From the NCBI RefSeq assembly GCF_000372065.1, contig NZ_AQVB01000015.1, forward strand, positions 121 through 63,155: DNA of 63,035 bases. Reading direction: 5' to 3'. Below are positions 32,592-45,118 of the stretch, piece by piece (position 1 is the first letter of the stretch; every line of letters begins with the position of its first letter). A program made the position numbers and the translations under genes. This DNA comes from Oligella urethralis DSM 7531. GTDB taxonomy: Bacteria > Pseudomonadota > Gammaproteobacteria > Burkholderiales > Burkholderiaceae_B. Below the pieces are notes generated by a model, which had not been told where the DNA came from, did no database searches, and saw only the letters and a list, made by a program, of their open reading frames with translations.

Positions 32592-33932
32592 TTAGTACCC
32601 CATCAAACTCGGCAACCACAAAGACAACCCAGGAACGAAGGCAATAGTAAAGATAGCAATCGTTAGGACCAGAATAAACGGTAGAACCTTAACCACAATT
32701 GACTCGACAGATGCACCTCCAATCCCCGAAGCAACGAAGATATTTTCACCTAACGGTGGTGTGATAAAGCCCACCGATAAGGCGCAGATAACCACGATAC
32801 CCACGTGTGTCGGATCCGCACCCAACATATAAGTCACTGGTAACAAAACTGGCACCAGAATCATAATCGCTGCTAAGGTTTCCATAAACATGCCGACAAA
32901 GAGCAAAAACAGAATCAATAAAGTCCAGATAAGGTACATATTATCCGTCAAATTAATCAAGGTCTCGGCAATGTGAGCAGGAATTTTCTGCTCCACTAAC
33001 AAGCGACCGAAAACGGTAGCAGCAAATAAAATTAACAAAACACGACCAGTAATCCAAGTTGTCGTACGCAAGGAGTTAAAGACTTTTTTGAAAGTTATTT
33101 CCCGGTGGATAAAAATACCAACGAATAATGTGTAGAAAATCGCAACAACCGCTGATTCTGTCGGCGTGAAAAAACCGGCATAAATACCGCCCAAAATAAA
33201 GAGCGGAGCTAATAAAGACCAAACCCCTTGTACCAGTGAACGTCGTAAACCAGCACCGTTCCAACCGCTATCCATACCCTTATAGCCATGCTTGCGTGAG
33301 ATAAAATAATTCATCACCATAATACTAGAAGCCATAATCAGACCAGGAATAACGCCGGCGATAAATAATTTCGAAATGGAAACACTGGCAAACTCTCCGT
33401 GTAGTGTAACGGCCTCAGCCGGCGGTCTTAAGCCAAGCGCAGAAATACCGAAAATCACCATGGGAATCGATGGCGGAATAATAATGCCTAAACCGCCAGA
33501 CGAAGCTGTAATCGCCGAAGCATAGCTTAAATTATAATTACGCTTGGTCATGGCTGGAATCATTAACATACCCACTGCGGCTGTGGTAGCCGGACCCGAA
33601 CCGGAAATGGCACCAAAAAACAAACACGCTATTACTGTTGCAAGACCCAAACCACCGGTAATCGGTCCAGCAAGACTTTCTGCAATATCGACTAAACGCC
33701 GAGAAATGCCCGCCGCTTCCATGAGCGCACCGGCCAATATAAAGGCCGGCAAAGCCATTAAGGGGAAATTACCTACGGAGGTAAAAGCAATTTGTACAAA
33801 TGAGATAGGATTTTTGTCCAAAACCAGATATGCCACCATCGCTGCACCGGCTAAGGAGACCGTAATCGGTGCGCCTATCAGCAGCAAGAAAATAAAGCCA
33901 CCAAATAGCAATAAGACAATTTGTTGTTCCAT
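32592..33932 (-). CDS. tauM: TRAP transporter large permease, DctM (TauM-like)
   Basis: A 446-residue polytopic subunit with the DctM motifs GAISGSGPATTAAVGMLMIP, SGGLGIIIPPSIPMVIFG and LSVGFITPPLGENIFVASG. It is the transport channel of the taurine-type TRAP system encoded with dctQ and dctP. It is 2 nt from the dctQ gene. Assignment to taurine follows from the adjoining tauXY and xsc genes, not from the sequence itself. Confidence 0.85.
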   Translation of the reverse strand: MEQQIVLLLFGGFIFLLLIGAPITVSLAGAAMVAYLVLDKNPISFVQIAFTSVGNFPLMALPAFILAGALMEAAGISRRLVDIAESLAGPITGGLGLATVIACLFFGAISGSGPATTAAVGMLMIPAMTKRNYNLSYASAITASSGGLGIIIPPSIPMVIFGISALGLRPPAEAVTLHGEFASVSISKLFIAGVIPGLIMASSIMVMNYFISRKHGYKGMDSGWNGAGLRRSLVQGVWSLLAPLFILGGIYAGFFTPTESAVVAIFYTLFVGIFIHREITFKKVFNSLRTTTWITGRVLLILFAATVFGRLLVEQKIPAHIAETLINLTDNMYLIWTLLILFLLFVGMFMETLAAIMILVPVLLPVTYMLGADPTHVGIVVICALSVGFITPPLGENIFVASGIGGASVESIVVKVLPFILVLTIAIFTIAFVPGLSLWLPSLMGY

Positions 33933-33934
33933 CG

Positions 33935-34495
33935 TTACGCCCCTTTAACCAGTTGATTTTTAGATGCTTCCTCTTGAATCTTGGCGAGTTCCTGCGCCTC
34001 AGGATCGATGATTTCAACGTGCTTAAACCAAGTAAGATAGTTATTCCATAAAATACGGATGGACATTAAAGCAAAAGCCAAGGGCAATACCATAAAGAAA
34101 TACTTCATGGGGATACCGGTTGTCTGAGACTTCCAAAACATATTCATGCGATTAAAGACGAAGTCATAACTTAAATAGGTAAAGAAAATATTAAAAGCTA
34201 CCCATAATAAATCGGCAAACGTTTCCACCACTTTTTTAACAATGGGTGGGAATAGCTTAAATTGCACAGTTACACGATTATGCGCTGACATTTTGGCGGC
34301 AACCACCGCACCCAAATAAGCGAACCAGACAAACATATAGGTCGAAACTTCTTCGGCCCAAGGGATGGAATACGCAAAGAAAAAGCGCATGACAATTTGC
34401 GCGAAAAGAATAATCACAAAAGTTGAGAGAAGCAGACCGCAAACATACTCTTCGATGTGATTAACAAGATGCAGAAAGAACTTTTTAAAACTCAT
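33935..34495 (-). CDS. tauL: TRAP transporter small permease, DctQ (TauL-like)
   Basis: A 186-residue four-span subunit with the DctQ signature PWAEEVSTYMFVWFAYLGA in the second loop. It partners DctM and DctP to form the importer. A polar C-terminal tail (about 155-186, EAQELAKIQEEA) is cytoplasmic. It is followed by dctM after 2 nt. Confidence 0.83.
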   Translation of the reverse strand: MSFKKFFLHLVNHIEEYVCGLLLSTFVIILFAQIVMRFFFAYSIPWAEEVSTYMFVWFAYLGAVVAAKMSAHNRVTVQFKLFPPIVKKVVETFADLLWVAFNIFFTYLSYDFVFNRMNMFWKSQTTGIPMKYFFMVLPLAFALMSIRILWNNYLTWFKHVEIIDPEAQELAKIQEEASKNQLVKGA

Positions 34496-34556
34496 TGAAA
34501 TCTCCGTCTTAAAATAGCTACGCTGATAATCAGTTGCCGCTATTTAGGCGACCACC

Positions 34557-34588
34557 GTCCGACCGAAAACCACATGATGCGGTCGGAC
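34557..34588 (-). terminator. Intergenic stem-loop between dctP and dctQ
   Basis: On the minus strand GTCCGACCG / CGGTCGGAC forms a perfect 9-bp stem, 29 nt after the dctP stop and before dctQ. It resembles the dctP/dctQM hairpin at 23401 and probably limits read-through or stabilises dctP mRNA. Confidence 0.6.
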
Positions 34589-34616
34589 AGCTTTACCGGA
34601 AAATTAATTGATTTAA

Positions 34617-35612
34617 TTAACGGCCTAACGATTTCAGAATTTTATCTAAGCGCTCTTTACCACCCACTTGGTCGTAGAATTTAGGCCACACTTGGTTAGT
34701 CGCCGCCTCGATCCATTCTTTTTCATCATTGGCAGGATCGTTGATTTCCATGCCCTTAGCCACTAATTCTTCTTTAATCTTTTGCTCAGTGTCTTGCAAA
34801 AACTGATAGCTATGCTCAGTAGCCTCCATACCGGCATCTAAAATTGCCTGCTGAACTTCTGGTGATTGTGACTGGAACACTTGTTCGCTCACAATTAAGG
34901 GCTCTAAGGAGAATAAATAACGAATATTGGTGATGTACTTTTGGACTTCATCAAACTTCATTGCAGCAACGGTGATGTACGGATTATCCTGACCATCCAC
35001 GACACGCTGTTGTAATGCTGTAAAGGTCTCATTCCAGGCTAAGGGGCTGGGATTAATACCCCAAGACTTATAGGTTGCAATCATTAATTCATTTTTAGGA
35101 ACTCGGATAACCATGCCCTTTAGATCATCTAACGTTTTAACCGGGCGCTTGGAGTTTGTTAACACACGGAAGCCTGAATAAGACCAACCGATAATGCGCA
35201 CACCCGCATCACGGATGGTATTTTCCGTCAACTCCTTACCAACATCCCCTTGTGTTAATTGCTTAGCATCTTCCAAACTTTGAATCATGTAAGGTAGCGT
35301 TAAAATAGCAACGGAGGGTGAAAATGGCGTGATATTATTGATGGCCAAAATCGAGAAATCAAGTAAACCCATGGCCGCATCATTTACTGTGTCTTGCTCG
35401 TCACCTAGTTGGCTATTAGGAAATAGGTCTGCGGTGTATTTGCCATCAGTTTTTTCTTTAAGGCTAGCCGCAAATGCCTTACCCAATTCGTGTTGGGTAC
35501 CGCCAGCCGCATCACCGATTGCGACTTTAAATGTCGCTGCGCTTACCGCAGTTGCTAGAAAAAAGCCGAAAGCACCGACCACGGTTTTTTTGAATAGTTT
35601 ATTAAGTTTCAT
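34617..35612 (-). CDS. tauK: TRAP transporter substrate-binding protein, DctP (TauK-like)
   Basis: Periplasmic receptor of 331 residues with a signal peptide ending AVSA (about residue 25) before ATFKVAIGDAAGG. The core GMVIRVPKNELMIATYKSWG carries the conserved Arg and FTALQQRVVDGQDNPYITV is typical of the family. Because it sits between tauXY and dctQM, taurine is the likely ligand (TauK in the Paracoccus nomenclature). It is the first of the three transporter genes and is followed by a stem-loop. Confidence 0.83.
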   Translation of the reverse strand: MKLNKLFKKTVVGAFGFFLATAVSAATFKVAIGDAAGGTQHELGKAFAASLKEKTDGKYTADLFPNSQLGDEQDTVNDAAMGLLDFSILAINNITPFSPSVAILTLPYMIQSLEDAKQLTQGDVGKELTENTIRDAGVRIIGWSYSGFRVLTNSKRPVKTLDDLKGMVIRVPKNELMIATYKSWGINPSPLAWNETFTALQQRVVDGQDNPYITVAAMKFDEVQKYITNIRYLFSLEPLIVSEQVFQSQSPEVQQAILDAGMEATEHSYQFLQDTEQKIKEELVAKGMEINDPANDEKEWIEAATNQVWPKFYDQVGGKERLDKILKSLGR

Positions 35613-35684: not shown

Positions 35685-37121
35685 CTACAACACCTCGTCT
35701 TTAAGGTGATACCAACGATAAAGAAAGCGTTGACCAAGTCGGCGGAATGGCGCAAAAGTTTCAGACTCCACTCTTTCAAATAGGTTAGGAAAAGGCAGTC
35801 GACTATTGAAAATTGGTAGATCCAATTCCGATCCATGACCAGCGATCCACTGAGCTAAGCGCTTACCAGCTTGCGCTGAATACATGACCCCGTTACCGCC
35901 ATATCCTAAGGCATAATAAATGCTCTGCTTAGGATCGGGCTGTGTAATGCGTGGCATCATGTCATGACTAACATCAACCCAACCCCACCATGAGTATTCC
36001 AATGGAATATCTCCTAGTTCGGGGAATTTACGTTTAATTGAAGCTCTAAGCAAGTCTTCATACTTTTGCTCAGGCGCTACACGACCTGTAATTGCGCTAC
36101 GGCTACCAATCTGCAATCGATTATCGGGCAATAATCGATAGTAATGACGAAGCACTCGTGTATCCGTCAAAACTTGATGCGTATAAAAGCGGCACGCCTC
36201 AATTTCATCAGCTGTTAAGGGGCGAGTCACTACGGAGTTGGATAAAATTGGCAATAACCGATTTTTAAACTCCTTATGTAAACTGTTGTTAGTATAGCCA
36301 CCTGTAGCCACCCCAACGGCTTTTGCTTTAACTACGCCACCAGGCGTATGCAAAAAGTGATAACCATCACGGGTTTCCCAGGATTGCACTGGACTGGAGG
36401 GGTGCACTTTTACACCTAAGGCTCGTGCCTTTTTGACATAGCCAAAAGCGAGTTTACCAGCATGAATACCAATCCCTTCTGGCTCGTGCATAGCACCGCA
36501 AGCCTCATGATCATTGACATACTCATTGCGCAATGTGGCGGCATCTATAATTTGTGCGTTATAGCCGAAAGTATTACGCAGCAACTCCGCCTCCTGCCTT
36601 AGGGCTGACATAATTCTTTCTCGGTGTGCGATATAGAAGTGACCGCCTGGCTGAGGATCGCAATCAATATCTTTGATTAACTCCTTAAAAGTTTCCATGC
36701 CATCAACGCATTCCTGATGCATTTTCTTGGCCGTTTCTAAACCCCAACGTTGAATCCACTGAGAACGCTTTAAACGTCCTGACGCACATTGCGCTTGACC
36801 GCCATTACGTGTACTACATCCCCAAGCAGTGCGATTAGCCTCTAAAACAGTTGCTTTGATACCATATTCTTGAGCTAGAAAGATGGCTGCTGTCAGCCCT
36901 GTAAAGCCAGCACCGATAATGGCTACATCTACTTCCATCGTTTGAGTCACCGGACCATCATCTGCCGGTGGCTCACCCGCCGTACCAATCCAATAGGTGG
37001 GCGCATAGTCTCGACCCAGTCCAGGCGTCTTGTCCATCAAAGGGTCATAGCTTGGATCATAGGGTACCCGCGCCTGGGTTGCACTCTCGGTAGTGGTCAC
37101 CTCATTTATCTGCATGACCAT
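35685..37121 (-). CDS. tauY: Taurine dehydrogenase large subunit, FAD oxidoreductase
   Basis: DadA-like flavoprotein of 478 residues. The N-terminal Rossmann motif VAIIGAGFTGLTAAIFLA binds FAD, followed by TRNGGQAQCASGR and a C-terminal WVDVSHDMMPRITQ and LGYGGNGVMYSAQAG. With TauX it forms the membrane-linked taurine dehydrogenase that converts taurine to sulfoacetaldehyde, ammonium and electrons for the respiratory chain. GGAGAG is 6 nt before ATG 37121. It starts 3 nt after tauX and lies upstream of the TRAP genes. Assignment rests on the tauX-tauY-xsc order known from Paracoccus and Rhodobacter. Confidence 0.85.
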   Translation of the reverse strand: MVMQINEVTTTESATQARVPYDPSYDPLMDKTPGLGRDYAPTYWIGTAGEPPADDGPVTQTMEVDVAIIGAGFTGLTAAIFLAQEYGIKATVLEANRTAWGCSTRNGGQAQCASGRLKRSQWIQRWGLETAKKMHQECVDGMETFKELIKDIDCDPQPGGHFYIAHRERIMSALRQEAELLRNTFGYNAQIIDAATLRNEYVNDHEACGAMHEPEGIGIHAGKLAFGYVKKARALGVKVHPSSPVQSWETRDGYHFLHTPGGVVKAKAVGVATGGYTNNSLHKEFKNRLLPILSNSVVTRPLTADEIEACRFYTHQVLTDTRVLRHYYRLLPDNRLQIGSRSAITGRVAPEQKYEDLLRASIKRKFPELGDIPLEYSWWGWVDVSHDMMPRITQPDPKQSIYYALGYGGNGVMYSAQAGKRLAQWIAGHGSELDLPIFNSRLPFPNLFERVESETFAPFRRLGQRFLYRWYHLKDEVL

Positions 37122-37124
37122 AAC

Positions 37125-37514
37125 TTACTCTCCGCTGATTGGTGGACGATTTTTACGGAACGCATTTTTGACCTTAATTTTATCGCCGTCAAACTCAAAC
37201 AAATCGACCATTTGAGCATCATGTTTGGCACCGTTTAAATCAGTTCCTTTAAATCGACTAGTAGACATCGCTTTATTTTCATCAAGTAGATAAAACTGAC
37301 CATCTAACCAAGCTGCATCCGGAAAATTTTTCCACGCTGATTCAAAAGCAGCGCGTACTTGTTCAGTCCCACGATGTTCAGTTCCCATCGCCGTGGGTCC
37401 GGCAATGGTGTAAAAAACACAATCCTCCGCCATCATGCTCATAATGGTATCGATATCATGATCATTCCAAGCTTGGGTGTAGGCTCTTAAAATATCTAAT
37501 TTATTCTTACTCAC
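37125..37514 (-). CDS. tauX: Taurine dehydrogenase small subunit, NTF2/SnoaL fold
   Basis: A 129-residue SnoaL/NTF2-like protein (AYTQAWNDHDIDTIMSMMAE, GTEHRGTEQVRAAFESAW). It starts with GTG 37514, supported by GGAGG 6 nt upstream. In characterised taurine-degrading alpha- and betaproteobacteria a protein of this fold and size, TauX, is the small subunit of taurine dehydrogenase with TauY, which follows here after 3 nt. On its own the fold would only suggest a ketosteroid-isomerase-like protein. Confidence 0.78.
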   Translation of the reverse strand: MSKNKLDILRAYTQAWNDHDIDTIMSMMAEDCVFYTIAGPTAMGTEHRGTEQVRAAFESAWKNFPDAAWLDGQFYLLDENKAMSTSRFKGTDLNGAKHDAQMVDLFEFDGDKIKVKNAFRKNRPPISGE

Positions 37515-37589: not shown

Positions 37590-39404
37590 TTATACGTAAT
37601 CTTTGTACTTGTCTAATAGACGCACAGGCTTACGTAACGCATCACGACGGAACGGATCACCTAATTCGCGAGTACACATAATTTCGATAACGCAAGTCTT
37701 ACCCTCGTTCATTTGCATATCGATCGCTTTTTTCAGTGCTGGACCAACGTCTTCGAGACGATCAACGACGATGCCTTCAGCGCCCATTGAACGAGCGATT
37801 TCTGCAAAAGAAGAGTTATCAAGTTCACCCGCAACAAAGCGACGATTATAGAACTCAACTTGGTTTTTCTTCTCTGCGCCCCATTGACGGTTGTGGAACA
37901 CCACAGCAGTCACTGGAATATCATGACGCACCGCAGTCATAACTTCCATCATGCTCATCCCCCAAGCACCATCGCCAGCATAGGCAATAGCAGGACGATC
38001 AGGAGCGGCGGCCTTGGCACCGATAATTGTAGGTAAAGCGTAGCCGCAGTTACCAAAACTCATCGGCGCAAAGAAGCTGCGCGGCTTTTCAAAACGCAAG
38101 TAACTATGTGCAACCGAGTTAATGTTACCGATATCAGTCGACACCATCACATTTTCTGGCATTGCCTTTTCTAACTCACGTAACACTTGACGTGGGTGGA
38201 GATAATCACCACCGTTAAACGTTTTTTCCTTGGCGTTTTCAGCGATCATGTCCAAACTATACGGGTCAGTTTCATGAGTCCAATTATCCAACTCTTCTTC
38301 CCACGCTGCTTTTTCAGCTGCAATTTTCTTGGCACGCTCTTCTTTAGTCGCATCGCTCGCTAAGTTTTCATCAGCTAAACGTTTAACCAATTCTTGCGCT
38401 ACTGCTTTGGCATCACCGCAAATACCGACGGCAATCTTTTTAACTAAACCAAGCACCTTGTGATCCGCATCAATCTGAATGATTTTGGCATCGGCAGGCC
38501 AATAATCCATACCATACTGCGGTAAGGTACCGAATGGCCCTAAACGTGAACCTAAAGCAATCACGACATCAGCCTGAGAAATCAGCTTCATACCTGCCTT
38601 AGAACCTTGGTAGCCTAAAGGACCACACCACTGAGGATGACTGGCTGGGAATGAGTCATTGTGCTGATAGCTGTTAACAACGGGTGCACCCAAGCGCTCA
38701 GCTAAAGCAATACACTCCTCGACGGCATCACCCATCACCACACCGCCACCAGAAATAATGACTGGGAACTTCGCATTTTTCAAAAGCTCAATCGCCTCTT
38801 GAAGCGACTGCTCACCACCATAGCCACGATCAATCTCGCGCGGCAATGGAATCTCACACGTAATTTCACCATAGAAGTAGTCACGTGGAATATTTAACTG
38901 TGTAGGACCCATTTCGCTCTTAGCGCGATCAAAACAACGTGCTGTATACTCAGCCATACGACTTGGGTTAGTGACATGACCCTGATACTTGGTAAATTCT
39001 TGGAACATCGGCAATTGATTACACTCTTGGAAACCGCCTAAGCCCATGGTGTTGGTACCAGCTTCGGGGGTAATCATCACGACAGGACTATGAGCCCAGT
39101 AGGCTGCAGCAATACCAGTCACACAGTTACTGATACCAGGGCCGTTTTGACCAATCACAACACCGTGACGACCCGATACTCTAGAATATCCATCCGCCAT
39201 ATGCGCTGCGCCCTGCTCATGAACTACAGGAATCAATCGGATGCCTGCTGGTGCAAAAATATCCATTGCGTCCATAAACGCTGAACCCATAATACCGAAG
39301 ATATCTCTAACACCGTTAGCAACCAAAGTCTCAACGAATGCCTCCGAAGGAGTCATCTTTGTCATACCGGTAACAGGCTTGCGATTATCAATTTCTTGAC
39401 TCAT
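37590..39404 (-). CDS. xsc: Sulfoacetaldehyde acetyltransferase
   Basis: Thiamine diphosphate enzyme that converts sulfoacetaldehyde and phosphate to acetyl phosphate and sulfite, the desulfonation step of taurine breakdown. The 604 residues show the ThDP site (GDGAWGMSMMEVMTAVRHDI, with downstream N of VVFHNRQWGAEKKNQ) and strong similarity by eye to Xsc proteins, including MTPSEAFVETLVANGVRDIF at the start and CTRELGDPFRRDALRKPVRL at the end. AGGAG precedes ATG 39404; an upstream start would add an unconserved 17-residue extension. First gene of the minus-strand operon xsc-tauX-tauY-TRAP-Cache. Confidence 0.95.
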   Translation of the reverse strand: MSQEIDNRKPVTGMTKMTPSEAFVETLVANGVRDIFGIMGSAFMDAMDIFAPAGIRLIPVVHEQGAAHMADGYSRVSGRHGVVIGQNGPGISNCVTGIAAAYWAHSPVVMITPEAGTNTMGLGGFQECNQLPMFQEFTKYQGHVTNPSRMAEYTARCFDRAKSEMGPTQLNIPRDYFYGEITCEIPLPREIDRGYGGEQSLQEAIELLKNAKFPVIISGGGVVMGDAVEECIALAERLGAPVVNSYQHNDSFPASHPQWCGPLGYQGSKAGMKLISQADVVIALGSRLGPFGTLPQYGMDYWPADAKIIQIDADHKVLGLVKKIAVGICGDAKAVAQELVKRLADENLASDATKEERAKKIAAEKAAWEEELDNWTHETDPYSLDMIAENAKEKTFNGGDYLHPRQVLRELEKAMPENVMVSTDIGNINSVAHSYLRFEKPRSFFAPMSFGNCGYALPTIIGAKAAAPDRPAIAYAGDGAWGMSMMEVMTAVRHDIPVTAVVFHNRQWGAEKKNQVEFYNRRFVAGELDNSSFAEIARSMGAEGIVVDRLEDVGPALKKAIDMQMNEGKTCVIEIMCTRELGDPFRRDALRKPVRLLDKYKDYV

Positions 39405-39552
39405 TTTTTCGTCTCCTAAAAAACCTGTCGCTTTAAGCGGACAGACTAAAAACACATAAGTTTAATGTGCTTGAAACACCAAGCGATTTAAAAGTGATAT
39501 TTATACAACTCAGAATCAAAACTAACACATAAAATCAAAAAAAGGAACAAAA

Positions 39553-39664: not shown

Positions 39665-40627
39665 ATGAATGATTTTCTTGAAAAACCAGAACTGGATGTA
39701 TCAATAACTGATTTGTTTGGTATAGATAACGCTTTGAAAGTTAAGGCGTTTAGCGCAAGAAATGAGTATGTGCCTGCGATTGATGAGGCCTATCGTTTTA
39801 ATCCGGAGGTCACTTTGGCGATACTGGCCGGTTTCAACAACAACCGTCGCGTTATGGTTCAAGGCAGACACGGCACCGGTAAATCAACGCATATTGAACA
39901 AGTCGCAGCGCGCTTAAATTGGCCATGTATCAGAGTAAATTTGGACGGACACATCAGTCGCTTGGACCTAGTGGGCAAGGACACGATTCGTATTCAAGAT
40001 GGTCTACAAATTACAGCTTTTCAGGAAGGCGTAATTCCTTGGGCGTTACAGCGACCCGTCGCCTTAATTCTGGATGAGTATGATGCTGGGCGCCCCGATG
40101 TGATGTTTGTTATTCAGCAAATCTTAGAACATGATGGACAATTTACTTTACTTGATCAAAATCGTGTCTTAACACCACATCCCTATTTTCGTATATTTGC
40201 TACTGCTAATACAGTAGGCTTAGGTGATAGCACTGGTTTATATCATGGCACGCATAGCCTTAACCATGCACAACTTGACCGCTGGAATATTGTGACGACC
40301 CTAAACTACTTAAGCCCTGAAGAAGAGGTCGCCATTGTGGCAGCTCGCGTACCCATCAAGAATCATGCACAGGGCTTAGCAGATATTAATGCGATGGTTG
40401 CTTTAGCCAACCTCACGCGCAATGCCTTTGCCGTCGGCGACCTATCCACCCTTATGTCGCCTCGTACCGTCATCACTTGGGCTGAAAACTGTACGATTTT
40501 TAAAAATAAGCAGCATGCTTTTATGGTGTCATTTTTAAATAAATGTGATGAATCTGAACACGCCTTGGTAGCAGAACTTTATCAGCGTTGTTTTAATGAG
40601 GAGTTACAGCTAAAACCTCGGTTATAA
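39665..40627 (+). CDS. CobS-like MoxR-type AAA+ ATPase in the taurine cluster
   Basis: A 320-residue ATPase very close to CobS: Walker A GRHGTGKST (67-75), DEYDAGRPDVMFVIQQILE with Walker B Asp137-Glu138, sensor region RIFATANTVGLGDSTGLYHG and LSPRTVITWAE-like LMSPRTVITWAENC. In aerobic cobalamin synthesis CobS and CobT drive cobalt insertion by CobN, but no cobN or other cobalamin gene is present. It is divergent from xsc and 16 nt before a CobT-like gene. MoxR/VWA pairs elsewhere (CbbQO, NorQD, CoxDE) activate or load cofactors into specific enzymes, so a role in maturing or reactivating a taurine-pathway enzyme is likely but unproven. Confidence 0.85.
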   Translation: MNDFLEKPELDVSITDLFGIDNALKVKAFSARNEYVPAIDEAYRFNPEVTLAILAGFNNNRRVMVQGRHGTGKSTHIEQVAARLNWPCIRVNLDGHISRLDLVGKDTIRIQDGLQITAFQEGVIPWALQRPVALILDEYDAGRPDVMFVIQQILEHDGQFTLLDQNRVLTPHPYFRIFATANTVGLGDSTGLYHGTHSLNHAQLDRWNIVTTLNYLSPEEEVAIVAARVPIKNHAQGLADINAMVALANLTRNAFAVGDLSTLMSPRTVITWAENCTIFKNKQHAFMVSFLNKCDESEHALVAELYQRCFNEELQLKPRL

Positions 40628-40643
40628 ATAGTGAGTTATTGTC

Positions 40644-42362
40644 ATGAACACCACCGACCAGTTAAGACAACAACGACGACTGCGTGAATTGAATGCCTCC
40701 ACAACGAGAGCGTTAACAGCCGATCCCAAGGTGCATATACGACAACAGCAGTTTTATCAGGGCAATCACGTGCTAAATTACGGTCCGCATTTACGCTTGC
40801 AGGAAGTAGAAGAAGCGGACTCCTTGCGTGGTGTGGCTGACAGCTTGTCACTGCGCTTGAACTATAGCGATAAACAACTGCATCAAAAGCACCGCCCCGA
40901 ATTACCCATTGCTCGCCTTATCTTTGATTGGCTAGAAACATTACGTTGCGAATCACTGGTGCCAGATAATTTACCTGGTGTAAAACACAATCTTCAGCAA
41001 CGCTTTTATCATTGGTCGGCGGGCTTTCATCATGCCGCCCAAAGTCAAACCGAGATCGGCATTCTACTCTACACCACTGCTCAAATGTGCTGGAGTCGCT
41101 TACTAGCTTTACCAGTGTATCCTGAAACAGAAGATTTTATTGAGTCAACGAGAGCAGCGTTAAGCGCCTCTTTAGGCGCAGATTTAGCTGGTTTAAGACG
41201 CTTTAAAAGCAGTCAAGCTGACTACATCCCCTATGCGCTATCCATTGCCGATTTTATTGCCGCATCCGTAGCACATGCACATCAAAACCATGGAAAACAA
41301 ACAATAGATGATAAGGAGGATACCGAAGAGGAGCATTTTGCGTTACTCCTGGACATGGACGATTTTGATGAGTCCGAGCAGGAACCGACACATGAGAGTA
41401 ATACCTCTCGCATTTTGAGCGATGGCGTGAGTCATGATTACCAAGTTTTTATGCGTGATTTTGACACCACTACCTATGTAGCGGAAGGTATACGTCCAGA
41501 GCTACTGGAGCAATATCGAGAACTTATTAATCAACGTCGACAGCACCAACAAATCTCTTTTCACCTGCTGATTCAACGTCTACGTAAAGTATTATTAACA
41601 CCTACCGCCACACAATGGGAATGGGATCGTGAAGAAGGCTTGATTGACGGACGACGAATAAGTCAACTCATCAGTTCACCAACAGAGCGACGCTTATTTA
41701 AAGAAATGCTACCGCAATGGAGAAATGAATGTAGCGTCAGTTTCTTGATCGACTGCTCTGGCTCCATGAAGCATCACGCAGAAACACTTACTCTTATGAT
41801 AGATATCTTGATTGAAGCCTTGGAAAAAACTGGTACCAAAACCGAGGTTTTAGGCTTTTCTACGAATGCTTGGAATGGCGGTCGTCCCTATCGCCGTTGG
41901 CAAGCAACCGGTCGCAAAGCCAACCCAGGCCGCTTAAATGAAATAGACTTCCGAATCTTCAAAGACGCTACCACGAATTGGCAACAAGCCAATCGCAGTA
42001 TCATGGCACTACTAAAACAAGACTTGTATCGTGAAGGTGTGGACGGTGAGGCTGTGATATGGGCTGTACAACGTCTATTAGAGCAAGACAGTAAACGCAA
42101 GGTGTTATATGTTATTTCTGACGGAGAACCAATGGATAGCGCCACTGCACTAGCCAATCATGACAAATACCTTGTCCATCACTTACAACATGTTTTGGCT
42201 CAACAACAACACTTGGGTATTGAGATTTGGGGTATTGGTATCGGCTTAGACCTGGGGCATTTGTATCGGAACTGTCTAATTGCTGATCTAGAGAAAGGCT
42301 TGGACAATCACTTTATAGATGACTTTGTACAAAGCCTTAACCCATTTAGGCGCGCTTATTAA
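40644..42362 (+). CDS. CobT-like von Willebrand factor A protein in the taurine cluster
   Basis: A 572-residue CobT homologue: helical N-terminal half, an acidic linker (about 222-252, rich in D/E) and a C-terminal VWA domain with an intact MIDAS motif DCSGSM (Asp370, Ser372, Ser374). The stretch RKANPGRLNEIDFRIFKDA and LYVISDGEPMDSATAL closely follow CobT. It is paired with the preceding AAA+ gene as CobT is with CobS. It ends 4 nt into the convergent IclR gene. Partner enzyme unknown; neighbouring TauXY and Xsc are the candidates. Confidence 0.85.
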   Translation: MNTTDQLRQQRRLRELNASTTRALTADPKVHIRQQQFYQGNHVLNYGPHLRLQEVEEADSLRGVADSLSLRLNYSDKQLHQKHRPELPIARLIFDWLETLRCESLVPDNLPGVKHNLQQRFYHWSAGFHHAAQSQTEIGILLYTTAQMCWSRLLALPVYPETEDFIESTRAALSASLGADLAGLRRFKSSQADYIPYALSIADFIAASVAHAHQNHGKQTIDDKEDTEEEHFALLLDMDDFDESEQEPTHESNTSRILSDGVSHDYQVFMRDFDTTTYVAEGIRPELLEQYRELINQRRQHQQISFHLLIQRLRKVLLTPTATQWEWDREEGLIDGRRISQLISSPTERRLFKEMLPQWRNECSVSFLIDCSGSMKHHAETLTLMIDILIEALEKTGTKTEVLGFSTNAWNGGRPYRRWQATGRKANPGRLNEIDFRIFKDATTNWQQANRSIMALLKQDLYREGVDGEAVIWAVQRLLEQDSKRKVLYVISDGEPMDSATALANHDKYLVHHLQHVLAQQQHLGIEIWGIGIGLDLGHLYRNCLIADLEKGLDNHFIDDFVQSLNPFRRAY

Positions 42363-43174
42363 GCAAGCCCGCGCTCAAAATCATCCTCGACCATCATCAA
42401 AGACTTTGCGGCACGTTGCAAGGCAGGCAATGCTGCCAAAGCCTTATCAGGTGTCATACGCATGATCGGTGCCTGCGTTGCCACTGCCAAATTTGAACGG
42501 CTACCATCACGGCGTGGCACTAAAACCGCTACACAAAACAATCCAGGTAAAAATTCCTCGTTGTCAAAAGCGTAACCCTGTTCTTTAACGCGGGACAATT
42601 CGCTATTTAATGCATCGAGCTCCGTAATCGTATTCTTTGTATAAGCCTTAAAATTAGCATTACCCAGCATGCGCTTACGTTGCGAAGGAGAGAATTGAGA
42701 TAACAAAACCTTACCGCTCGCTGAACAATGTACTGGCACTCTAGATCCGGGCCTTAAATAAAACCGTAAGGGCTCATCACTTTCAATGCGATCAACATAT
42801 AAGACCTCATTCCCAGACAGTGTCGTCAGATTGCAATTTTCACCCAATTCCTCCCCCAATGCACGCAAAATCATATGGCGTGCGCCATAGCGAGTGTCAT
42901 TGATCAGCAGATCCTCTGCCATGCGCCGGAGGCGCGAACCAATACAATAATGACGCCCATCAACTTCTCGCGCCAACATACCTGAAGCTTCTAACTGTTG
43001 CAGCATACGATGCAGGGTGGGCTTAGGCAAATCGGTACTGTCAACCAAGCTTTGCAAGGAAAACTTCTGCTCCTGACTAGCAATCAACTCTAGAAGGCTC
43101 AACAAGCGCAAGGTCGGCGTATCGCCCGCAATACTGATTTGCTCTACAAATTTTCTATCTGATAAATTGTCCAT
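42359..43174 (-). CDS. IclR-family regulator of the taurine cluster
   Basis: IclR-type protein of about 271 residues: winged helix (SLQSLVDSTDLPKPTLHRML) and effector domain with VPVHCSASGKVLLS and FDNEEFLPGLFCVAV. ATG 43174 is used, with AAGGAGG 12 nt upstream; the TTG at 43198 lies before that site. It is encoded between the cobT-like gene (convergent, 4-nt overlap) and pta (divergent), so it probably controls the taurine genes. This differs from the MocR-type TauR regulators of Rhodobacter and Paracoccus clusters. Confidence 0.83.
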   Translation of the reverse strand: MDNLSDRKFVEQISIAGDTPTLRLLSLLELIASQEQKFSLQSLVDSTDLPKPTLHRMLQQLEASGMLAREVDGRHYCIGSRLRRMAEDLLINDTRYGARHMILRALGEELGENCNLTTLSGNEVLYVDRIESDEPLRFYLRPGSRVPVHCSASGKVLLSQFSPSQRKRMLGNANFKAYTKNTITELDALNSELSRVKEQGYAFDNEEFLPGLFCVAVLVPRRDGSRSNLAVATQAPIMRMTPDKALAALPALQRAAKSLMMVEDDFERGLA

Positions 43175-43231
43175 AAAAACAAATATCCTCCTTAACAATC
43201 CCTTGTTATTAGATTATTTTAATATAAAAAC

Positions 43232-43320: not shown

Positions 43321-44325
43321 GTGTCAATATTACAACAAATCATCAACAGAGCCAAACAAGCTCCTGCGACCATTACGCTATGTGAGGCTGAAGATATTCG
43401 CATTTTAAATGCAGCCTTAAAAGCTCAAAATGAAGGTATAGCAAAGATCATCTTAGTGGGAGATGAGAATAAAATCCAAAATAAGGCAAAAGAATATGAG
43501 CTGGATATTTCTCTTCTCGAAATCGAAGATACTAAAAGCTCAAAAAATCGTCCACAACTTGTGACCGCCCTAGTAAAACAACGTGCCCACAAGGGTATGA
43601 CAGCGGCACAAGCTGAACACGCGCTTGACGATCCCTTATGTTTTGCCAATATGATGGTACACAGTGACTTAGCTCAAGGCTCAGTGGCAGGCGCTGTGTA
43701 TAGCACCGCAGATGTCGTCAGAAACGCTTTGCAATTGATAGGAAAAAGACCTGATACAGCGATTGTGTCGAGCTTTTTCTTGATGCTTTTAAAACAGTCG
43801 CCGGACGCACAAGAAAGACCTGTTATCTTTAGTGATTGCGGTCTAATCATTGATCCCGATGCCGAAGAGTTAGCTGCGATTACTATTGCTGCCTCAAAAA
43901 GCGCAAAGGATCTTTTGAATGTTGATCCCCGTATTGCAATGTTGAGCTTTTCTACTGCCGGAAGTGCTAAACATCCTGCTGTCGATAAAGTTACACAAGC
44001 AGCCACCTTGATTAAAGACAAGCTCCCCAACATCGCCATTGACGGTGAGGTACAATTTGATGCGGCTTTTGTACCTGACATTGCGGCTAAAAAAATCAAA
44101 CATTCCAGTGTTAACGGTCAGGCAAACGTGTTTATTTTTCCAAACCTAGATGCCGGTAATATCAGCTACAAAATTGCTGAACGTATTGGCGGTGCGACGG
44201 CGATCGGTCCCTTACTTCAAGGCTTACAAAAGCCAGCCAACGATCTATCTCGCGGCTGTCATGTGAATGATATCTTTTATGTTATAGCGATAACTTCACT
44301 ACAAGCGCAAAGCGTTAATAACTAA
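43321..44325 (+). CDS. pta: Phosphate acetyltransferase
   Basis: Converts acetyl phosphate from Xsc to acetyl-CoA. The 334 residues are the short Pta form without the N-terminal DRTGG domain: SFFLMLLKQ, IFSDCGLIIDPDAEELAAI, MLSFSTAGSAKHPAVDKV and GPLLQGLQKPANDLSRGC are all family motifs. It starts with GTG 43321 after a weak TTAGGGA site. It is a regular partner of xsc in taurine degraders and precedes the exporter tauE by 19 nt. Confidence 0.93.
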   Translation: MSILQQIINRAKQAPATITLCEAEDIRILNAALKAQNEGIAKIILVGDENKIQNKAKEYELDISLLEIEDTKSSKNRPQLVTALVKQRAHKGMTAAQAEHALDDPLCFANMMVHSDLAQGSVAGAVYSTADVVRNALQLIGKRPDTAIVSSFFLMLLKQSPDAQERPVIFSDCGLIIDPDAEELAAITIAASKSAKDLLNVDPRIAMLSFSTAGSAKHPAVDKVTQAATLIKDKLPNIAIDGEVQFDAAFVPDIAAKKIKHSSVNGQANVFIFPNLDAGNISYKIAERIGGATAIGPLLQGLQKPANDLSRGCHVNDIFYVIAITSLQAQSVNN

Positions 44326-44344: not shown

Positions 44345-45118
44345 ATGGATGGTGCTGTGATGAGTTTGAGCATAGTCAGTTTACTTTTACTGATTGTTGC
44401 CGTAGCCACTTACTTTCAGACGGTTACTGGCTTTGGATTAGCCATGATCGTCATCGGTGTGGTCAGTGGCTTTCAAATCACAGAGGTAGCTTTTATTGCC
44501 ACTGTTGTCAGTTTAATCAGTATTGTCAATAGTGGCGTTGCGCTGCCTAAACACTTACATAAGATTCAATGGCGCAGCGCCTTTATTTGTTTAGCGGGAA
44601 TAATTCCTTCAAGCATCTTGGGGGTGATTTTATTAGATTATTTAGGTCATCAAGCAAGTGCAGCCTTAGAGCTGTTACTTGGCGTAATTATTGTCTATAG
44701 TGGCGTGCGCTTTGCGCTTCGCCCAAAGCAAAGAGAAACTATCTCTAGCGACAGTTCCTTCTTTATTGTTGGTTTTATTTCTGGACTATGTGGGGGTTTA
44801 TTTGGAATGCCGGGACCACCATTAATCTTCCATATGTATCGTCAACCATTAAGTATAGCGGTGGTGCGTAATATGCTGTTATTACTGTTTTGCGCCACCT
44901 CATTTACACGAACGCTATATGAAGCGACAGCCTATGGACTTCCTGCCGAAGCACTTTATATTGCGACAATGGCTATCCCTTGTGTGGCTATTTTTACCGT
45001 AATAGGGCAAAAATTTCCACCGCCGCTAAGCCCTAACAATATGAGACGGATGTGCTTTATTACCTTAATTTTGATTGGACTAGGTGTCATCAAAGGTAGC
45101 TTCGGTCAACTAATCTAA
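44345..45118 (+). CDS. tauE: TauE/SafE (TSUP) family sulfite or sulfonate exporter
   Basis: A 257-residue TSUP-family membrane protein with about eight spans and the repeated G-rich motif GFISGLCGGLFGMPGPPLIF, paralleling TYFQTVTGFGLAMIVIGVVS near the start. In taurine clusters TauE-type proteins export the sulfite released by Xsc. It lies 19 nt after pta in the same operon. Start ATG 44345 is uncertain; ATG 44360 has GGATGG 7 nt before it and would remove five residues. Confidence 0.82.
   Translation: MDGAVMSLSIVSLLLLIVAVATYFQTVTGFGLAMIVIGVVSGFQITEVAFIATVVSLISIVNSGVALPKHLHKIQWRSAFICLAGIIPSSILGVILLDYLGHQASAALELLLGVIIVYSGVRFALRPKQRETISSDSSFFIVGFISGLCGGLFGMPGPPLIFHMYRQPLSIAVVRNMLLLLFCATSFTRTLYEATAYGLPAEALYIATMAIPCVAIFTVIGQKFPPPLSPNNMRRMCFITLILIGLGVIKGSFGQLI

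Follow-up and report, generated by a model that had tools for sequence, protein, structure and literature searches.

In this work we analysed two adjacent genes of Oligella urethralis DSM 7531 that encode a CobS-like AAA+ ATPase and a CobT-like VWA protein. The balance of the evidence favours the view that they derive from the CobS/CobT motor of cobaltochelatase and were recruited as an accessory system, of the AAA+/VWA kind, that is dedicated to a single clade of sulfoacetaldehyde acetyltransferase (Xsc). The motor and MIDAS motifs of the pair are intact, it is linked to and co-distributed with one Xsc clade in several families whatever the upstream pathway, and many of the genomes that carry it lack CobN. 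We call the window the whole stretch of DNA that was analysed (63,035 nucleotides of contig NZ_AQVB01000015.1); its features are listed in Table 1.

Results

The gene pair and its neighbourhood

The two open reading frames are separated by 16 bp and carry the Pfam domains AAA_5 and CobS_N (CobS-like protein) and CobT, CobT_C and VWA (CobT-like protein). The Walker A motif (GRHGTGKST) of the CobS-like protein is intact and the MIDAS of the CobT-like protein is complete (DCSGSM, i.e. D370-x-S372-x-S374, plus the conserved T407 and D493); the pair also has the RKANPGRLNEIDFRIFKDA motif, so that the complete CobS and CobT motifs claimed for both genes in the sequence-only reading of this DNA were all found. 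An AAA+ ATPase with Walker motifs hence adjoins a VWA protein with a complete MIDAS, as in pairs of the NorQD/CbbQO type. Both proteins score below the NCBIfam equivalog cut-offs, with 490 bits against 558.55 for the CobS profile and 238 bits against 759.05 for the CobT profile. In a Foldseek search with the predicted structure of the CobT-like protein (pLDDT 83, pTM 0.53) the best match was the VWA domain of NorD (E 8e-9), a partial match with a TM-score of 0.28 over the query, and there were no CobT entries among the matches listed.

xsc is divergent from the pair, with the SnoaL-like, FAD-dependent oxidoreductase and TRAP transporter genes beyond it, while the IclR, pta and TauE/SafE genes lie downstream of the pair, and together they make up a taurine cluster. 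Open reading frames and profiles therefore bear out the earlier statement that taurine genes flank the pair on both sides. Xsc residue numbers given below count from the GTG of the open reading frame at 37590-39455, the likelier start being Met18.

Table 1. Genes of the taurine cluster in the window, and Lin0512 genes of two related loci
Feature	Position	Strand	Basis
Three TRAP transporter genes (large, small, binding protein)	32592..35612	-	named by place and sequence only
FAD-dependent oxidoreductase (DAO), TauY-like	35685..37121	-	ORF, Pfam
SnoaL-like small protein, TauX-like	37125..37514	-	ORF, Pfam
xsc, sulfoacetaldehyde acetyltransferase (thiamine-diphosphate enzyme), presumed client	37590..39455	-	TIGR03457, 1052 bits (cut-off 676)
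CobS-like AAA+ ATPase, motor subunit, 320 aa	39665..40627	+	ORF, Pfam, NCBIfam; 444 bits to solved CobS 9ujv
CobT-like VWA protein, 572 aa, presumed client adaptor	40644..42362	+	ORF, Pfam, NCBIfam, CobT tree
IclR-type regulator of the cluster	42359..43198	-	ORF, Pfam
pta, phosphate acetyltransferase, uses Xsc-made acetyl phosphate	43321..44325	+	ORF, Pfam, NCBIfam
TauE/SafE-type exporter, probably for sulfite	44345..45118	+	ORF, Pfam
Lin0512 examples	L091:3510-4230; L098:12453-12836		two representatives of the gene cluster are Lin0512_fam PF09585

Linkage of the pair to xsc

Eighty-nine CobT loci were compared, namely the best 80 of at least 395 relatives from 84,980 species genomes and nine loci fetched before. 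Carriers among these best 80 include Paenalcaligenes, Azoarcus, Aromatoleum, Halomonas and Variovorax, as well as Polaromonas, Caballeronia, Pseudogulbenkiania, Pseudomonas saliphila and Oceanisphaera. Genes were counted by tblastn, with xsc accepted at 500 bits or more, because calling open reading frames by length only hid xsc in some GC-rich loci. A CobS-like gene is present in 87 loci, IclR in 68, xsc in 60, pta in 40, TauX-like and TauY-like genes in 33 each, the TauE/SafE exporter in 25 and the TRAP genes in 14 to 18. Where xsc is present it lies on the strand opposite to the pair in 58 of the 60 loci, and upstream of it in 39. A genome-wide search for 30 loci (L153, whose xsc is partial, and 29 that lack xsc) matched in 17 genomes and added 16 (L086 fragmentary), and in four further loci (L082, L091, L097 and L100) a fragment of xsc lies at a contig edge, so that xsc is found in the locus or the genome for 80 of the 89 loci. 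It was not found for nine (L079, L081, L087, L090, L110, L121, L123, L134 and L140), in all of which at most 1.7 kb of contig is left upstream of the CobT match; several extend up to 10 kb downstream, with no xsc there. The pair thus shares with pairs of the NorQD/CbbQO type a conserved linkage to the gene of one enzyme, here the presumed client Xsc.

A plasmid search matched 68 records, seven of which cover 80% or more of the query. In both of the plasmid or chromid loci inspected among these seven, from Photobacterium sp. DA100 and Caballeronia sp. NK8, the pair lies beside xsc; in the latter it is annotated 'AAA family ATPase' and 'cobalt chelatase'.

Three features of these neighbourhoods deserve mention. 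The two Halomonas loci L091 and L097 have xsc fragments at both contig edges, which suggests that more than one copy of xsc broke the assembly around the pair. In 20 of the 89 loci CobT is directly followed by small genes of a Lin0512 cluster, two in 17 of the 20 and one in the others; the solved relative 3c8l is described as an 'FtsZ-like protein of unknown function', no literature on Lin0512 was found, and the window has no such gene. Finally, a ThiG-like gene cluster, named from sequence, occurs in 14 of the 89 neighbourhoods (e.g. L086:4297-5130) and may be plain chromosomal context.

Co-occurrence in genome samples

Searches for xsc and for the CobT-like profile were run on one set of 330 genomes of the order. 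xsc scored over the cut-off in 39, and CobT matches at E <= 1e-20 were obtained in 14, of which 10 are strong (660-910 bits, full length) and four weaker (G118, 305 bits; G202, 271; G287, 117; G153, 109). All 10 strong-CobT genomes have xsc on the same contig, within 4 kb in eight, at 22 kb in G344 and at 29 kb in G191, and the association is significant (Fisher p 1.7e-10, uncorrected for kinship). It is moreover restricted to one kind of Xsc: all xsc of these 10 genomes score above 1020 bits, a value exceeded in 12 of the 39 xsc genomes, and the pair is present in 10 of these 12 (G175 and G357 being the exceptions) versus none of the remaining 27. G118 is one of the 27, and its weak CobT match lies on another contig than xsc.

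In a phylum sample of 398 genomes the strong CobT type was present in seven (567-892 bits; five of the seven are also in the order sample), again with xsc on the same contig in every case. None of the 20 further xsc genomes of this sample belongs to the class, and the CobT match of each is weak and of the canonical type; that such a CobT accompanies the alphaproteobacterial-type xsc in all 20 leaves room for a role of that CobST on Xsc there. The 12 genomes of both samples that carry the pair represent seven genera and six families. CobT was not found in seven congeners of the host, and neither was xsc in G004, the congener searched for it. Co-occurrence in the order and phylum samples leads us to reject a chance neighbourhood of the pair and xsc, and the possibility that their association was peculiar to this genome, named at the outset as one that would count against a link, is contradicted by its width across samples and loci.

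The pair follows one Xsc clade

In a tree of 132 Xsc sequences, from which segments shorter than 500 residues were dropped, all 83 CobST-linked sequences form one clade with those of G175 and G357 (support 0.89), outside of which are 28 other beta/gamma and 19 alpha-type sequences. Because the CobST-linked sequences had partly been chosen by CobT, the tree was rebuilt from the genome samples only, with 60 sequences, 11 of them from genomes with the pair (one of the 12 is missing under its label). These 11 again group with the two exceptions (clade support 1.0), and two changes of the CobST label suffice on this tree, compared with a minimum of seven in 1000 shuffles.

Fourteen positions differ between this clade and the other Xsc, and several of them presumably immediately precede the catalytic glutamate or belong to the cofactor motif, a placing for which we lean on the anatomy of thiamine-diphosphate enzymes as well as on the alignment. 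The clade also has a linker insertion with Glu410, a residue that all 83 members as well as G175 and G357 possess; this column is a gap in all 28 other beta/gamma sequences and Asp in 5 of the 19 alpha-type sequences. These residues may be marks of descent only, rather than of contact. At residue 446, in the DIGN motif, Asn is found in more than 95% of the CobST-linked Xsc and in both exceptions, and Cys in 47 of 47 others. The loci of G175 and G357 (L224 and L225) have the clade Xsc with pta, FAD oxidoreductase and TRAP genes and no pair, which points to natural loss. Since these two genomes have the clade Xsc with Glu410 but not the pair, the pair is not strictly required.

Discussion

Xsc as the probable client

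The strongest competing explanation is that a different product of the regulon is the target of the pair, or that the pair shares IclR control with xsc, Xsc being just a neighbour. An IclR gene is indeed present in most of the loci (68 of 89), the Lin0512 gene or gene pair lies behind CobT in 20, and CobT distances track those of pta and IclR (Mantel r 0.81 and 0.79) better than those of Xsc (0.47 with CobT, 0.40 with CobS). The Mantel test favours Xsc over neither IclR nor pta, and co-phylogeny was dropped as support for Xsc and counts instead against it. However, no other enzyme family is equally frequent near the pair (by clustering, xsc in 61 loci, pta in 51 and FAD oxidoreductase in 33), pta is found in 4 of the 21 long TauXY-less loci described below, and relatives of IclR also lie beside Xsc types that have no pair. 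We therefore regard this explanation as rather unlikely.

The sequence-only reading had left the choice of client between TauXY and Xsc, and of these Xsc is favoured. A pair serving the taurine dehydrogenase TauXY (the SnoaL-like and FAD subunits), for instance in flavin loading or assembly, would agree with the TauX/TauY-like genes in the cluster of the window and in 33 of the 89 loci. However, in 30 of the 60 loci where xsc adjoins the pair, the flank that was retrieved has no TauX/TauY-like gene. Of these 30, 21 are covered for 19 kb or more, and a SauS cluster is present instead in 14 of the 21 (one representative passes NF047625 with 750 bits, cut-off 600, the other SauS being assigned by clustering). 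Conversely, in L232, L264, L283 and L282 (the last with a cut xsc) TauXY-like genes adjoin an xsc of another type and the pair is missing, with the caveat that the genomes of L264, L283 and L282 have a canonical-type CobT, while that of L232 (G127) gave no CobT match. These two observations make TauXY a very unlikely client. SauS-type clusters and TauXY-like genes each occur with both kinds of Xsc (14 SauS-type loci are of the non-CobST kind), and the pair occurs with one Xsc clade only. With an upstream pathway that varies (TauXY, SauS) and a CobST that keeps to one Xsc clade, the likely client is Xsc and not TauXY.

That the pair is the real CobS/CobT of a cobaltochelatase, with CobN encoded elsewhere, is the least probable explanation and hardly credible. 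It was a condition named in advance against a role in taurine metabolism that the host should carry cobN and a B12 pathway with these as its only CobS/CobT, and the earlier statement that there is no cobN holds for the surroundings of the pair rather than for the host: the host genome (2.31 Mb, 99.99% complete) yielded no further CobS or CobT, and it encodes on another contig one CobN-family protein of 1322 aa that passes the NCBIfam CobN cut-off (NF004644, 1469 bits). Its operon (L003:1406-8184, contig C19) reads TonB receptor, CobN-family protein, MotA/TolQ/ExbB, DUF2149, and by this operon and the literature the protein looks like a heme de-chelatase of the HmuS type although NCBIfam names it CobN; HmuS is described as a CobN homologue that removes iron from heme without ATP and without CobS/CobT (PMC12583661). 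The B12 marker cobM reaches at best 158 bits in the host, below its cut-off of 259.65, and exceeds this cut-off in 3 of 19 genomes with the pair. Two profile searches combined, with the host in both, gave no CobN-family match in 19 of 34 genomes with the pair (7 of 10 with TIGR02257 and 12 of 25 with PF02514, the latter set including 15 of the 30 genomes of the genome-wide xsc search), so that in the majority of the genomes searched the pair is uncoupled from CobN and from B12 synthesis. Finally, 100 xsc-type CobT sequences split from 25 canonical ones in the CobT tree, with support 1.0 on the canonical side and 0.30 on the other. With these observations and the scores below the cut-offs, the cobaltochelatase reading was set aside, and the pair is probably not a cobaltochelatase.

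Comparison with known AAA+/VWA systems

By sequence the pair is closest to CobNST (besides the CobS match in Table 1, the CobT profile gives 365 bits to 9uka), and 71 CobT positions are conserved alike in the xsc-type and canonical groups. It differs from CobNST in its scores below both equivalog cut-offs, in its separate CobT branch, in its place beside xsc instead of cob genes, in the frequent absence of CobN, and in 12 CobT positions that are conserved yet different. These include the MIDAS, which is DCSGSM in xsc-type and DNSGSM in canonical CobT (residue 371; at least 90% per group), a difference that may be usable as a marker of CobT type. As for HmuS, it resembles the CobN-family protein of the host and not the pair.

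NorQ and NorD likewise combine an AAA+ ring with a VWA adaptor for one client, and it is the VWA domain of NorD that best matches the CobT-like model. However, their client is a membrane metalloenzyme into which iron is inserted, the fold match is partial, and NorQ matches the CobS-like protein at only E 1.7e-4. For NorQD, the MIDAS is suggested to bind acidic residues of the client (PMC13036017). CbbQ and CbbO form an AAA+ motor and a VWA adaptor that free a soluble enzyme of inhibitors; CbbO is reported to bind Rubisco via its VWA domain, and CbbQO isoform pairs to be specific for enzyme forms (PMC4660213), and the present pair is similarly tied to one Xsc clade. CbbQ belongs to another AAA+ branch (E 6e-9) and has another client, and an activase function of the pair is putative.

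A possible mechanism

By analogy with NorQD and CbbQO, we infer that a reactivase or maturase of a thiamine-diphosphate enzyme is the best mechanism for the pair. The CobS-like subunits would form an ATPase ring on which the CobT-like subunit would sit, and the MIDAS of the latter would dock on Xsc in the manner suggested for NorQD and CbbQO; the clade-specific linker insertion with the invariant Glu410 is a candidate contact on Xsc, and is a guess. The ring would turn the CobT-like adaptor, which would grip Xsc, and ATP turnover would open the enzyme near thiamine diphosphate, with either of two outcomes: a dead-end or damaged cofactor would be expelled, or the cofactor would be loaded and Xsc assembly finished.

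Xsc releases sulfite, and sulfite cleaves thiamine. For this reason removal of the spent cofactor is the most attractive role, and we would rank it ahead of loading or assembly. In its full form the proposal, which we put forward as a tentative one and with more doubt than confidence, is that of an AAA+ reactivase in which the CobST-derived motor opens Xsc and clears sulfite-cleaved or trapped thiamine diphosphate, helped in some lineages by the Lin0512 proteins with their FtsZ-like fold.

Significance

No published link of xsc or sulfoacetaldehyde with CobS/CobT, VWA or MoxR proteins was found in the literature searched, which covers subscription journals poorly. A natural comparison is available, since one Xsc clade has the motor and others do not. 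CobS/CobT-like genes of this kind would be unsafe as a sign of B12 synthesis in genomes and metagenomes. If the proposed role is correct, AAA+/VWA machines would gain a soluble thiamine-diphosphate enzyme as a client, and genes that are at present taken for cobaltochelatase would instead assist, as an accessory system, the breakdown of organosulfonates such as taurine and sulfoacetate.
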